IMG/VR virus record: IMGVR_UViG_3300030099_006995
Coordinates: 1 to 64,000 of that record
Strand: one strand, 5' to 3'
Source of the DNA: a virus
DNA: 64,000 nucleotides
In this document: piece after piece, positions 6,596 through 29,246 of the stretch
Layout: every line of letters begins with the position of its first letter
Numbering within the stretch: the first letter of the stretch is position 1
The notes under the pieces: model-generated
What the model was told of the DNA's origin: nothing
Databases searched by the model: none
Seen by the model: only the letters and a program-made list of their open reading frames with translations
Translations under genes and position numbers: made by a program

Positions 6596-7351
6596 GTGCC
6601 GGATTTCAAGCACCCAGTCGTATACGACCCCCGCACTGGAAAGCTTTTTAGCGATCCTCGACTTGGCGTACTCGACGAGATCGTGATCAGCTCCGGGGGT
6701 GCCGTAACAAGCGTCGAAGGGCGAACCGGCGCCGTCCTTATTTCTGCTGACGACGTTGGCCTGGGCAGCGTTGACAACACATCTGATCTGGCCAAGCCAG
6801 TTTCCAATGCCACCCAGGCAGCAATCAACTCAGCAGTTGCTGGAATCTCTTCCGGTGTCACGTCAATCGGTGGTCAAACTGGTGATGTCACTCTCGGGGA
6901 CATCAATCTTGACAATGTTGATAACACCTCTGATGCAGACAAGCCCGTCTCGACGGCACAACAGACTGCGCTTGATCTGAAGGCTGATGCCTCAGCATTG
7001 GCAGCAAAAGCCGACGCCTCGGATCTCAACACCATCGAGTGGACGCTCACTGCAAACGGGAGCAGTGATTACATCTTTGCGGGGCCAGGTTTCACAGGCA
7101 CCGTCACTGACCCCACTCTTTATGTGATGCGTGGTCATACTTACAAGTTCACTAACAATATGAATGCTCATCCTTTCCGGATTCAGAGCACGACAGGAAC
7201 CAGTGGCACTCCTTACAACGACGGCATCACAAACAACGCCGTGAGTAATGGCACGCTGGTATGGACAGTGCAAATGAATGCACCATCAACTTTGTATTAC
7301 CAGTGCACTGCACATGCTGCGATGAACGGCACGATCAACGTGCTGGCCTAA
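6596..7351 (+). CDS. Fibre-like repeat protein with a cupredoxin-like C-terminal domain
   Basis: 251 residues, GTG start. The first half has phage tail-fibre-type repeats (VGLGSVDNTSDLAKPVSNAT, then LDNVDNTSDADKPVSTA). The C-terminal 100 residues look like a cupredoxin barrel: His192 in NAHPF, and Cys237, His240 and Met243 in YQCTAHAAMNG. The C-x2-H-x2-M spacing matches amicyanin-type copper sites. It could be a virion surface protein; copper binding or electron transfer is inference. Its stop overlaps that of the convergent repressor gene. Confidence 0.7.
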   Translation: MPDFKHPVVYDPRTGKLFSDPRLGVLDEIVISSGGAVTSVEGRTGAVLISADDVGLGSVDNTSDLAKPVSNATQAAINSAVAGISSGVTSIGGQTGDVTLGDINLDNVDNTSDADKPVSTAQQTALDLKADASALAAKADASDLNTIEWTLTANGSSDYIFAGPGFTGTVTDPTLYVMRGHTYKFTNNMNAHPFRIQSTTGTSGTPYNDGITNNAVSNGTLVWTVQMNAPSTLYYQCTAHAAMNGTINVLA

Positions 7352-8136
7352 GCAGCCACAGGCTCGTTGACAGGACTATCAGATTCAAAGCAAATTCTGC
7401 AGATGCAATCAAGAGGCTCACAGCCTTTTAACTCGTCAATCTGCGACATAGCCGTCGTAATAGGGCAAGGACTTTCGTATCTACCCTCGAATTGCTCACG
7501 AGCTGCAGTTAGCTCAGCACCGTTAAGGACTCTGCTGCCGTTGCAAATGTCGTAGCAGAGGTCCATCTCATCTTCGGTGAGATCACCGAGAGCCTCAAGC
7601 TGTACTTCGACCATCTTCCAAGCACCACGAAGGCTCTTACCAACTTCAGTACTTAGCAACTTCAAGCAGTCATGTGAGTAGCTGCAGAATTCCTCAGCCT
7701 CCTCATCGGTGTAACCGCCCCAGGTCGGCTTATCCATCACATTGGCCACCTCTGCAGTTCCAGGCACAATGCTCAATTCACGCATTGTGCCGTACTTCAT
7801 CGCTTCAAGCAGTGCAGGCAGATCTGACTGACCAGCGGACGATCGGATCCAACTAGCTACGTCATCAATAGTCAAACTTGACCGGTACTCACCTGTCTCG
7901 TAGTAATCAAGGAGAGTATTGGTAGTAACTCCCAGAGACTCCGCCAGTTTCCGAATTTTGGAAACGCCAACATTTCTTGGGTCTACAGAACCACGGAGAT
8001 ACTTCGTGAGAGTTCCAATAGTGATTCCGAGCTTGGCACACAGCTCACGCTGCGAGAGCTTGTTGGCCGCCAGTGCCTGATGCAGTGATTGCACAAATCT
8101 CTGCGTCGACAGATCTGGGGAAGGTACCTCGGTCAT
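7348..8136 (-). CDS. XRE-family repressor-like transcription regulator
   Basis: 262 residues. Residues about 12-75 form a classic helix-turn-helix (LSQRELCAKLGITIGTLTKY, then IRKLAESLGVTTNTLLDYY). The C-terminal 180 residues are helical and Cys-containing and lack a LexA/CI Ser-Lys peptidase signature, so control would not be by self-cleavage. It faces the primase gene across a 390-base spacer, the layout of a phage repressor with its operators. It is the best candidate for a lysogeny regulator; a host-gene regulator is an alternative. Confidence 0.75.
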   Translation of the reverse strand: MTEVPSPDLSTQRFVQSLHQALAANKLSQRELCAKLGITIGTLTKYLRGSVDPRNVGVSKIRKLAESLGVTTNTLLDYYETGEYRSSLTIDDVASWIRSSAGQSDLPALLEAMKYGTMRELSIVPGTAEVANVMDKPTWGGYTDEEAEEFCSYSHDCLKLLSTEVGKSLRGAWKMVEVQLEALGDLTEDEMDLCYDICNGSRVLNGAELTAAREQFEGRYESPCPITTAMSQIDELKGCEPLDCICRICFESDSPVNEPVAA

Positions 8137-21147: not shown

Positions 21148-21287
21148 GCTGTTGAAAGAATCAGCACGCAAAGACTAGAGACTGTCTTTCAGCTTGCAAC
21201 CTGTGGCACGCAGAACAGTGGTCGCTACGTTCAGCGCCACATCAGACGAACTGCATGCCACGTCCTGCAACACCGGCCTGCCAGCGC

Positions 21288-21518
21288 ATGGTCACACCCG
21301 CAGAGGCGTGCCAAATCCTTGGGATTTCTGAGACCACACTGAAGCGCTGGCGGCACAGCGACAGGCTTATGCGTGGCGTGCACTACGTCCAGTACGGACC
21401 AAAGACGATTCGATATGACGCTGACTGGCTCAAGCGCTTCAGGGCCACGGGTGGGCGCGGCTCACACAAGCTTGATGTTGCTAATCACCTGAAGTCAATG
21501 AAGCGATCAGCTCCATAG
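21288..21518 (+). CDS. Excisionase/MerR-like helix-turn-helix protein
   Basis: 76 residues from ATG 21288 (an ATG at 21255 is also possible). TPAEACQILGISETTLKRWR is a winged helix-turn-helix of the excisionase/MerR kind, followed by a wing and IRYDADWLKRF. It ends convergent with, and 38 bases inside, the integrase gene. A recombination directionality factor is the natural guess from this position. Confidence 0.65.
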   Translation: MVTPAEACQILGISETTLKRWRHSDRLMRGVHYVQYGPKTIRYDADWLKRFRATGGRGSHKLDVANHLKSMKRSAP

Positions 21519-23076
21519 CCAGCTTTTGCTTTTCGGACGAGGAGAGGTTCTTGACCAGATCATCGACACCAGCCACTCTCTTGACCTTGTCCTGCTGCGG
21601 GAAGCTCAGCACGCCGGAGTAGTGGTTTCTCATCGTGGTTTCTTTATCCCCAATCCAATAAGCGATCTGCCGCTGGCTGTACTCACCAATGCGGCACATC
21701 ATGCTGACGTAGGTGTGGCGCAGGTTGTACGGACGGCGATAGCGAACACCGGCCTCAGCGCATGCCCGCATGAAGTACCTGCGGAAGTTGTGCCAGTCAT
21801 AAGGCAGCCGGAAGTCATCGCCTGCCCCTGGCCCCTGGAACACAAGACGCTTACGCCACTCCTGGTTCGCCATGCAGGCGAGCTTCCTGGGCATCAGCGA
21901 CTCAACCGCCTTCTTGAACAGGTTTTCAAAGCCCGGAACAAAGGTGTTGAGCTCAGGCTGGTGCTCCGTACCGTTCTTGACGCGCTTGAACCTTTTCTCG
22001 GGGTCGAGGTGCAAACGGTGCTTCTTAAAAACAGCTAGCTCAAACAAGACTGGGTCTCCTGTTAAGACAAATTCCTGAGCTCGAGGAACGTGGTAGCCGA
22101 GCTGGTGCCCTTCCCAAAGACCCAGGATGTGATCCCAGCGCAGGGCTAACACTTCATTGGGCCTTGCACCAGTCGCAAGCAAAATTGCGAACAGAGGGAA
22201 GTAAGGCTTCAGATAGTCATTCCTAAGGAATGCCTTACACAACGCCTCAGCTTCGGGTGGCGTGAAAGGCTGCGCTCGAGAATTCTCATCGCCGACCTTC
22301 ATGTCTTCGATGATTATGTCGACCTGCTTGCGCTCGGTATTGATCGGGTTGCCGCGACCTTCGCTGTCCTGAACGCCCCAGTGAATCCCCGGCCGAACAC
22401 CTGAGGACTTTGGCTTTTTACTGGCTCGACTCAGCGCGGCCGACAACAGTGCATAGACACCACGCAAAGTGCTGTACTTAAAACCCTCAGCAATCCACGC
22501 CTGTGTCATTTGCATGGCGATGTCTTCATCCAGGTCGCTGCATTCGACATGCCCAAAAACTTCACCGTTCTTGCTGCGCATAGCCAGCAACTTGAAAGCT
22601 TGATCGCCGTAAGTATCTTTCTGGTTCTCGGAACCAAGAGCCTGCTGGATATGCCAACGCAGGGCAAATCCAAGCGTGCCGAATGGATACGTCTTTGAAA
22701 CCTTGGGCCGATTGATGTGATCAGTCCTTAGCTCCCCCATCCAATACCCGTCCTGCATGCCTTCGAGGATTCCCTGGAAGGTCATGAACTTCTCGGGGTA
22801 CTGCTTAAGGAACGCCAGCGCATCCTCTTTGCTGGTGATATCCCTCGGGCAGTTGATACCAAGGCTCTGGCAAACGATCGAACGATCTCGTGAGTAGTCC
22901 CTCGCCCGGATACGAAAGCCACGGTTGTTGCTTTCAACCTCGATAGCAAGCGAACGCTTACGTCCATTACGTGGCGGCAAGTCGACCTTGTGAATTACTC
23001 CTGCAGCAGGTGCCATGAGCGTCGTCCAGTTAGGTGCAATCACCTCCACCGGTTTGACCTTGTCCGATAGCCCCAT
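21481..23076 (-). CDS. int: Tyrosine recombinase (integrase)
   Basis: 531 residues. Catalytic features: the box I Arg in LLATGARPNEVLALRW, Arg and His in YNLRHTYVS (Tyr replaces the usual first His, as in many cyanobacterial integrases), and nucleophile Tyr in RNHYSGVL. The N-terminal 270 residues carry a SAM-like core-binding part and an arm-binding part, making it longer than typical. Direct repeats and a tRNA-Ala gene lie just upstream, as expected for attP. It catalyses site-specific insertion into the host chromosome. Confidence 0.92.
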   Translation of the reverse strand: MGLSDKVKPVEVIAPNWTTLMAPAAGVIHKVDLPPRNGRKRSLAIEVESNNRGFRIRARDYSRDRSIVCQSLGINCPRDITSKEDALAFLKQYPEKFMTFQGILEGMQDGYWMGELRTDHINRPKVSKTYPFGTLGFALRWHIQQALGSENQKDTYGDQAFKLLAMRSKNGEVFGHVECSDLDEDIAMQMTQAWIAEGFKYSTLRGVYALLSAALSRASKKPKSSGVRPGIHWGVQDSEGRGNPINTERKQVDIIIEDMKVGDENSRAQPFTPPEAEALCKAFLRNDYLKPYFPLFAILLATGARPNEVLALRWDHILGLWEGHQLGYHVPRAQEFVLTGDPVLFELAVFKKHRLHLDPEKRFKRVKNGTEHQPELNTFVPGFENLFKKAVESLMPRKLACMANQEWRKRLVFQGPGAGDDFRLPYDWHNFRRYFMRACAEAGVRYRRPYNLRHTYVSMMCRIGEYSQRQIAYWIGDKETTMRNHYSGVLSFPQQDKVKRVAGVDDLVKNLSSSEKQKLAMELIASLTSGD

Positions 23077-23120
23077 GACCCCGAAATCGAAGGAACGGGG
23101 GGCGGTAGTCAGTGGTGGAA

Positions 23121-23150
23121 GTTGACCGGAGATGACCCGATTTGACCGGA
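23121..23150. repeat. Three phased 10-bp repeats upstream of int
   Basis: GTTGACCGGA, GATGACCCGA and TTTGACCGGA follow one another exactly (23121-23130, 23131-23140, 23141-23150). One helical turn per copy would put each on the same DNA face, as expected for arm-type integrase or regulator sites. Confidence 0.7.
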
Positions 23151-23154
23151 TCTT

Positions 23155-23282
23155 TTCTACCAGTGAACCTTTGAGAACCCTTGCAATGACTGAAATTTAG
23201 CGACTGTGCGCGTAAAATGCCATTTTAGTGACACCCCAGTCAGGGCAACGGATCTCAGAGGCTTCTACCAGTTTCTACCAGT
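23155..23282. repeat. Three copies of TTCTACCAGT between int and tRNA-Ala
   Basis: Identical 10-mers at 23155-23164, 23263-23272 and 23273-23282, the last two head to tail. An imperfect inverted copy (AGTGGTGGAA) lies at 23111-23120. The spacing of one single and one paired site around 100 bases resembles arm sites of phage attP regions. Binding by the integrase is inferred. Confidence 0.65.
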
Positions 23283-23314
23283 TGACACTTAAGGAGTCAA
23301 GTCACTGCAAACAA

Positions 23315-23334
23315 CCCCTGGCTCGGCTCAGGGG
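23315..23334. other. Hairpin CCCCTG-8-CAGGGG before the tRNA
   Basis: Perfect 6-bp stem around an 8-base loop. A TATAGT -10-like hexamer (23343-23348) and a second hairpin GTGCT-4-AGCAC (23355-23368) follow before the tRNA. Could end transcription from one side or form part of the attachment region. Confidence 0.4.
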
Positions 23335-23376
23335 TGCCGTTGTATAGTCGACCGGTGCTTACGAGCACACCCGGAA

Positions 23377-23449
23377 GGGGCCTTGGCACAGTTGGTAGCG
23401 CGCCTGCATGGCATGCAGGAGGACAGGAGTTCGAATCTCCTAGGCTCCA
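23377..23449 (+). tRNA. tRNA-Ala (anticodon GGC), probable attachment site
   Basis: Full cloverleaf: acceptor GGGGCCT/AGGCTCC, anticodon stem CCTGC/GCAGG with loop ATGGCAT (anticodon GGC), T arm AGGAG-TTCGAAT-CTCCT, discriminator A; the D stem has one mismatch. CCA is not encoded. It stands 300 bases from the integrase start, so it is either a phage tRNA or the attP/attB copy that restores the host tRNA after integration. Confidence 0.92.
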
Positions 23450-28447: not shown

Positions 28448-28956
28448 AAAAGCTTCTTAGCGCGCTCGTAATCGCTTCGGCGTTCGCTGCGCCGGCACAA
28501 GCAGACATCATCCACCGTATTTCTAGCTCAGTACAGCTATCGGTTGACGCTGCTGCATCTAACGCCACAAGAGTTCCTTCGGTCTACTCAGTAAGTGGAT
28601 CGAACTTAAACACTACAGATGGCAACACATCTGGGAACATCGGTCGCCTTGCAGCATTTTCTGCTGGTACAGCTCCGGGTTTTACTGGCACAACAGCCAG
28701 CGTAAAAGTTGCTGGCGAAGACTTTAGTTTTACTGAGTCTTATATCGAAGGAGACAAGCCTCATGCCGGTAGTTCCGTTGCGTCTGGCGTGATTGGGACC
28801 CTCCCCGTTCTGGGATCGACGGTCACCAGCGCGGGCGGAGTGGCCTCAACCTTGGCAGGCACTGTGGGCACTGACGGTGCAGTCACCATCACTGCAGGGG
28901 GCGCAGGCACAACTGCTACAGCACAACACGTTTCGGAGCTAAGTATTTTCAACTGA
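28444..28956 (+). CDS. Exported protein with signal peptide (170 aa)
   Basis: Sec signal [20 protein letters not shown], then a Ser/Thr/Gly/Ala-rich domain ([20 protein letters not shown]). Proteins of this look occur in cyanomyoviruses with unknown role; they may be placed in the periplasm or outer membrane of the infected cell. Shares its last base with the ferredoxin start. Confidence 0.7.
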
Positions 28957-29246
28957 TGAAGCGCAGCATCACATTTCACGGCGACAACGGAATCGAATCC
29001 TTTGATTGCCCTGAAGAAGAATATATTCTCGACGCGGCCGAAGACGCCGGCATTGCCCTGCCCTATTCTTGCAGGGCTGGCGCTTGTTGCTCCTGTGCGG
29101 CCAAGATAATTGCCGGCGAAGTCGATCAAAGCGATCAATCCTTCCTAGACGATGATCAGATCGAGGCGGGCTACGTGCTTTTGTGCGTGGCCTACCCAAA
29201 GACTGACTTGGTCGTTAAGCCTGGCGTCGAGGACGAGTTGTACTGA
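28956..29246 (+). CDS. Plant-type 2Fe-2S ferredoxin
   Basis: 96 residues. Cluster ligands Cys39, Cys44, Cys47 (CRAGACCSC; spacing C-x4-C-x2-C) and Cys77 (LLCVAYP), as in PetF. Carries electrons from photosystem I to reductases; cyanophage ferredoxins are known partners of phage-encoded bilin reductases, none of which is visible here. It sits between two exported-protein genes but has no signal peptide, so acts in the cytoplasm. Confidence 0.92.

Follow-up and report, generated by a model that had tools for sequence, protein, structure and literature searches.

A seven-base attachment core and an adjoining tRNA-Ala gene suggest that a cyanophage breaks a host tRNA gene on insertion and supplies its own copy

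Attachment to tRNA genes in described phages

Crossover in the anticodon loop is standard among tyrosine integrases, with 2083 islands in Islander (PMC4383910), and such a loop of 7 bp, taken with its palindromic stem, matches the overlap region and core organisation of these enzymes (PMC8371274). In actinobacteriophages lysogeny can be tRNA-dependent: short cores (8-17 bp) go together with a phage-encoded tRNA of matching isotype, which lysogeny requires (PMC10865867). Such lysogeny has been shown in that group and is suspected in a few others. The locus described here resembles those of Fionnbharth, Cluster L and Gaia in having a tyrosine integrase, a putative short core and paired arm sites, and would probably share with them a phage tRNA of the species that carries attB and junctions at which no tRNA is rebuilt (PMC10865867). 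It differs from them in that the phage is a cyanophage, the tRNA is tRNA-Ala(GGC), the core is a 7-bp loop (12 bp in one relative), integration is predicted and the attP and the tRNA form a single conserved int-attP-tRNA module.

Among marine cyanophages, the T7-like S-TIP37 and P-SSP7 likewise carry an integrase and an attP directed to a tRNA gene of the host, yet their attPs are perfect matches to a region of the host tRNA-Leu gene, whereas the crossover proposed here would disrupt the gene (PMC8776855). In T7-like cyanophages integration occurs but stable lysogens are not obtained (PMC8776855), and a phage that integrates is thus not necessarily a stably lysogenic one. The picocyanobacterial siphovirus P-SS2 also has an int-adjacent attP candidate containing tRNA sequence; it matches the host exactly over 53 bp, of which 36 bp are tRNA-Met sequence, and unlike in our phage a complete replacement tRNA is not described as part of the site (PMC2784084). 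Substitution of a host tRNA gene by a phage-borne isoacceptor is known from Sinorhizobium, where it was seen in integrated alphaproteobacterial prophages, whereas our locus lies in a phage genome (PMC11476347). The module thus appears to extend a known arrangement to cyanophages.

The phage genome, its integrase and the related loci

The window analysed comprises 64,000 nucleotides (53% G+C), bases 1-64000 of a viral record of 66,580 bp without end overlap. Replication and nucleotide genes lie to the left of the site and structural genes mostly to its right, so the site belongs to a phage genome and not to a prophage end, as an earlier note on this DNA had held. The nearest isolate is Synechococcus phage S-EIV1, which shares a virion structural protein (48%) and a terminase (51%) but has no annotated integrase and no tRNA found in its first 50 kb. 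The window also encodes a cyanophage outer-membrane-like protein and, at 28956-29246 on the plus strand, a 2Fe-2S ferredoxin (Pfam Fer2) that is likely an auxiliary metabolic gene. Beyond the tRNA-Ala gene, four relatives carry Glutamine-II riboswitch aptamers (RF01704) on the minus strand (L002:4602-4657, L005:1580-1634, L006:687-740 and L178:3444-3497), and the window and its close relative L004 have other sequence at this place. The Glutamine-II riboswitch is cyanobacterial. Judged by the kinship to S-EIV1, the outer-membrane-like protein, the ferredoxin and the riboswitch of its relatives, the phage is a cyanophage. A Cro/CI-type HTH protein, a candidate lysogeny repressor, is encoded beside a primase/helicase gene at 7348-8136 on the minus strand and fits a temperate history.

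The int gene (21481-23076, minus strand) encodes a tyrosine recombinase of 531 aa that matches the PHROG integrase family phrog_1 (3e-25). A Pfam Phage_integrase match below the cut-off was obtained for all six integrase members (6/6). R305, K367, R453 and Y486 are conserved in alignments with relatives and, by motif, are the putative catalytic residues; with the two family matches they give the locus the phage-encoded tyrosine integrase of tRNA-dependent lysogeny. In every relative, the 42%-identical L178 included, Tyr450 and Asp477 apparently stand in place of the two usual catalytic histidines. No sequence relative of Int was found in the PDB, and its AlphaFold prediction had a pLDDT of 39. 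Convergent with int and overlapping its end, a gene at 21255-21518 on the plus strand encodes an 87-aa protein (Pfam HTH_17, PHROG excisionase) that is a candidate excisionase or directionality factor; of eight related loci searched, seven have it next to int, and the remaining one, L042, ends inside int.

Nine integrase-bearing loci, the window included, were compared, with integrases 42-96% identical. Integrase searches provided loci at 96, 80, 60, 59 and 61% identity, L002 and L003 being counted once because their attPs are identical. L042 and L043 were added by a pattern search with the arms and their spacing, the core being left out of the query, and L178 by an integrase search with a wider alignment, to whose lead sequence it is 42% identical. 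Among genome contigs the integrase search gave one match, L020 (NHEP01000172.1), a phage fragment of the related lineage apparently misbinned in the MAG 'bacterium TMED88'.

Arm-type sites and an anticodon-loop core

Between int and the tRNA gene, three exact copies of TTCTACCAGT lie on the plus strand, a single one at 23155-23164 (the P arm) and two in tandem at 23263-23282 (the P' arm, 23263-23272 and 23273-23282), as the earlier note had read them. They are the only exact copies in the 64-kb window, all within 130 bp, and among 5000 dinucleotide shuffles of the 300-bp region a single one contained a 10-mer occurring at least three times. Counted from the core, the left CTACC begins 60 bp ahead of it in eight of the nine loci and 59 bp ahead in L178; the right ones are offset from the core by +41 and +51/52 in the same eight and by +42 and +51 in L178. 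Between the left arm and the first right arm, the int-tRNA regions can be aligned without any gap. Arm-type sites on both sides of a core, an element of tRNA-dependent lysogeny, thus appear conserved in sequence and geometry in all nine loci, and this geometry supports well the earlier proposal that an attP, with arms around a core, lies in the int-tRNA interval. Read on the opposite strand, the arm motif TCTACCAG (23156-23163, 23264-23271 and 23274-23281) gives CTGGTAGA, which several of the tRNA-Ala genes compared have in the D-loop; in a tRNA attB the motif would be separated from the anticodon-loop core by about 8 bp and share the side and strand of the P' arms.

To the left of the P arm are three phased 10-mers, GTTGACCGGA, GATGACCCGA and TTTGACCGGA (23121-23150, plus strand). 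They had been noticed before and are indeed present, the middle copy being weaker; none of 2000 shuffles reached their score, and TTTGACC is common to seven loci in this region. Since single TTTGACCGGA-like sites are frequent elsewhere by chance, only the phased cluster is notable. These 10-mers are candidate binding sites of Xis or of an accessory protein. Lying directly upstream of int, the repeats could also bind a regulator, and the phased 10-mers resemble sites of small HTH proteins; yet it is very improbable that the repeats serve int or the tRNA as operators or promoter elements, given the layout of single site, core and tandem, the near-fixed spacing of 60/41/51 and a palindromic anticodon-loop core, all typical of an attP and untypical of an operator.

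The attP core, TAAAATGCCATTTTA (23213-23227, with no strand assigned), is a palindrome around ATGCCAT (23217-23223), which on the other strand reads ATGGCAT, the sequence of the 7-nt anticodon loop in tRNA-Ala(GGC). Although pairwise identity among the first seven attP regions falls to 47%, they share AAATGCCATT (23215-23224 in the window), their only common 10-mer and longest common k-mer; the arm motif TCTACCAG is the only 8-mer outside it that is common to all seven. Column shuffling produced an invariant run of 10 columns in 0.4% of cases; a 7-mer of the anticodon loop was invariant in 0.01%. The core-free query led to two new int loci, L042 and L043, and AAATGCCATT is in both. L178, found by integrase similarity alone, has a tRNA-Ala(GGC), a like arm geometry and a core, CCTGCATGGCAT (CCTGC-ATGGCAT), that matches 12 bp of the 5' anticodon stem and loop. 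The stem of L178's own tRNA differs from that of its core, which indicates that the core follows the sequence of another tRNA-Ala(GGC) gene and not that of the phage gene. Any stretch of 300 bp can be expected to share 7 bp with a tRNA by chance, and such a match is weak by itself; what gives it weight is where it lies, its invariance, the loci found without use of the core and the 12 bp matched in L178. The sequence and copy number of the host tRNA-Ala(GGC) gene are assumed from the general conservation of the ATGGCAT loop, which E. coli also has.

The phage tRNA and the proposed exchange

The tRNA-Ala(GGC) gene at 23377-23449 (plus strand) is complete according to ARAGORN and Rfam (60.3 bits), so the earlier description of it as intact stands. 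A complete tRNA-Ala lies just upstream of int, on the opposite strand, in all nine int loci, and in most of the int-bearing records it is the sole tRNA. Among five distinct phage tRNAs, 99% of the cells of the fold are paired and seven pairs changed on both sides; these compensatory changes preserve the cloverleaf, and the phage tRNA is thus selected as RNA. It carries a G3-U70 pair. Two features conserved in relatives, a TATAGT -10-like element (23343-23348) and a hairpin just upstream of the gene (GTGCT-TACG-AGCAC, 23355-23368; T/A to C/G exchange in L005), both on the plus strand, are its putative upstream elements.

The loop ATGGCAT is kept in the tRNAs of the window, L004, L020 and L043, while loop or stem is unlike the core target in six relatives (L002, L003, L005, L006, L042 and L178), including G32-C38 in L002, L003, L005 and L006. 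In L042 (11547-11619, minus strand) the anticodon GGC is changed to TGC, one base from the near-identical L043, and the attP core is still ATGCCAT. Such departures could protect the phage tRNA from the integrase, though they are not universal, and self-attack by Int on the ATGGCAT-bearing tRNA of the window is possible in principle.

The earlier note had placed the crossover in the phage tRNA itself, its 3' half acting as the core and the host gene being regenerated. A complete tRNA does adjoin int, and the attPs of T7-like cyanophages (PMC8776855) and P-SS2 (PMC2784084) match host tRNAs exactly. Nevertheless, no CTACCAG arm repeats were found 3' of the tRNA, so that no tRNA fragment is flanked by arms and the 3' half was set aside as core; the arms flank instead another conserved core, 23217-23223, between the repeat clusters, at which only the 7-bp loop is matched. 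In addition, the tRNAs of the relatives have drifted apart, with compensatory changes, the loop is off ATGGCAT in L002, L005, L006 and L042, and the sequence 3' of the gene is unconserved between the window and a relative with an 80%-identical integrase. We consider this canonical arrangement improbable. Only slightly less doubtful is a tRNA that serves lytic translation alone and stands beside int incidentally, Int using an unrelated host site. Many lytic cyanophages carry tRNA-Ala, and GCC and GCT make up 58% of the Ala codons in the window genes; yet the tRNA-Ala occupies the same place in nine of nine int loci, mostly as the only tRNA of the record, and it is to this tRNA species that the attP core corresponds.

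We therefore favour, with reasonable though not full confidence, an attP at 23121-23282 whose crossover would lie in the anticodon loop of the host and a phage tRNA that would replace the lost host function. The phage would be temperate or formerly temperate. Int would bind the CTACCAG arm sites, one left and two right, and the palindromic core, and strand exchange with the identical loop of a host tRNA-Ala(GGC) gene would use ATGCCAT/ATGGCAT as the 7-bp overlap. This would split the host tRNA, and with no more than about 7 bp in common and unrelated flanks, neither junction would rebuild it; when junctions were modelled over 7 bp with a stand-in Ala(GGC) gene (the phage tRNA as that of the host), ARAGORN recognised no tRNA. 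The phage tRNA-Ala(GGC) is complete and the core matches an Ala(GGC) loop, from which the attB tRNA species is predicted. As a separate gene under structural selection, the phage tRNA is probably the replacement, and it would take over from its place on the P' side, at a distance of about 150 bp.

In the predicted prophage, int and the P arm would lie at one end and the P' arm and the phage tRNA at the other. The int end would be downstream of the 5' half and promoter of the host tRNA, which could read into int, while the phage tRNA would keep its own upstream elements (TATAGT and hairpin). On the tRNA strand, with host stem letters assumed, the junctions would read host 5' half ...CCTGC-ATGGCAT-TTTACGCGC (into the P arm) and (P' arm) TGTCACTAAA-ATGGCAT-GCAGG... 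host 3' half. As no lysogen was found, we infer integration into the host, like arm binding, overlap position and complementation.

Scans of viral contigs for chimeric junctions of an integrated copy gave chance matches only. The attL pattern had ten matches, all without a tRNA-Ala at the match; the attR-like pattern led to L179 and L180, which have no tRNA, and the ORFs of L179 included no recognisable integrase. A core-plus-one-arm scan was too unspecific (at least 120 matches, none of those checked encoding the integrase), and L044 and L045 had no tRNA and no related integrase. A search for the host tRNA in a plasmid collection gave no close match, the best being about 90% and none cyanobacterial among the matches listed.

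A broader and more tentative idea, which we rate as possible rather than likely, is that the lineage lysogenises by swapping the host tRNA-Ala(GGC), its own tRNA being altered in anticodon loop or stem such that Int is unable to attack it while the core stays fixed to the host loop. If so, swap-type prophages would leave no restored tRNA, and island scans based on tRNA fragments would miss them. Since the module names a likely host site and both junction sequences, lysogeny can be tested in metagenomic reads or in cultures. If the proposed exchange is true, tRNA-dependent lysogeny would reach the cyanophages, and the single tRNA gene of such a phage would gain a concrete role.
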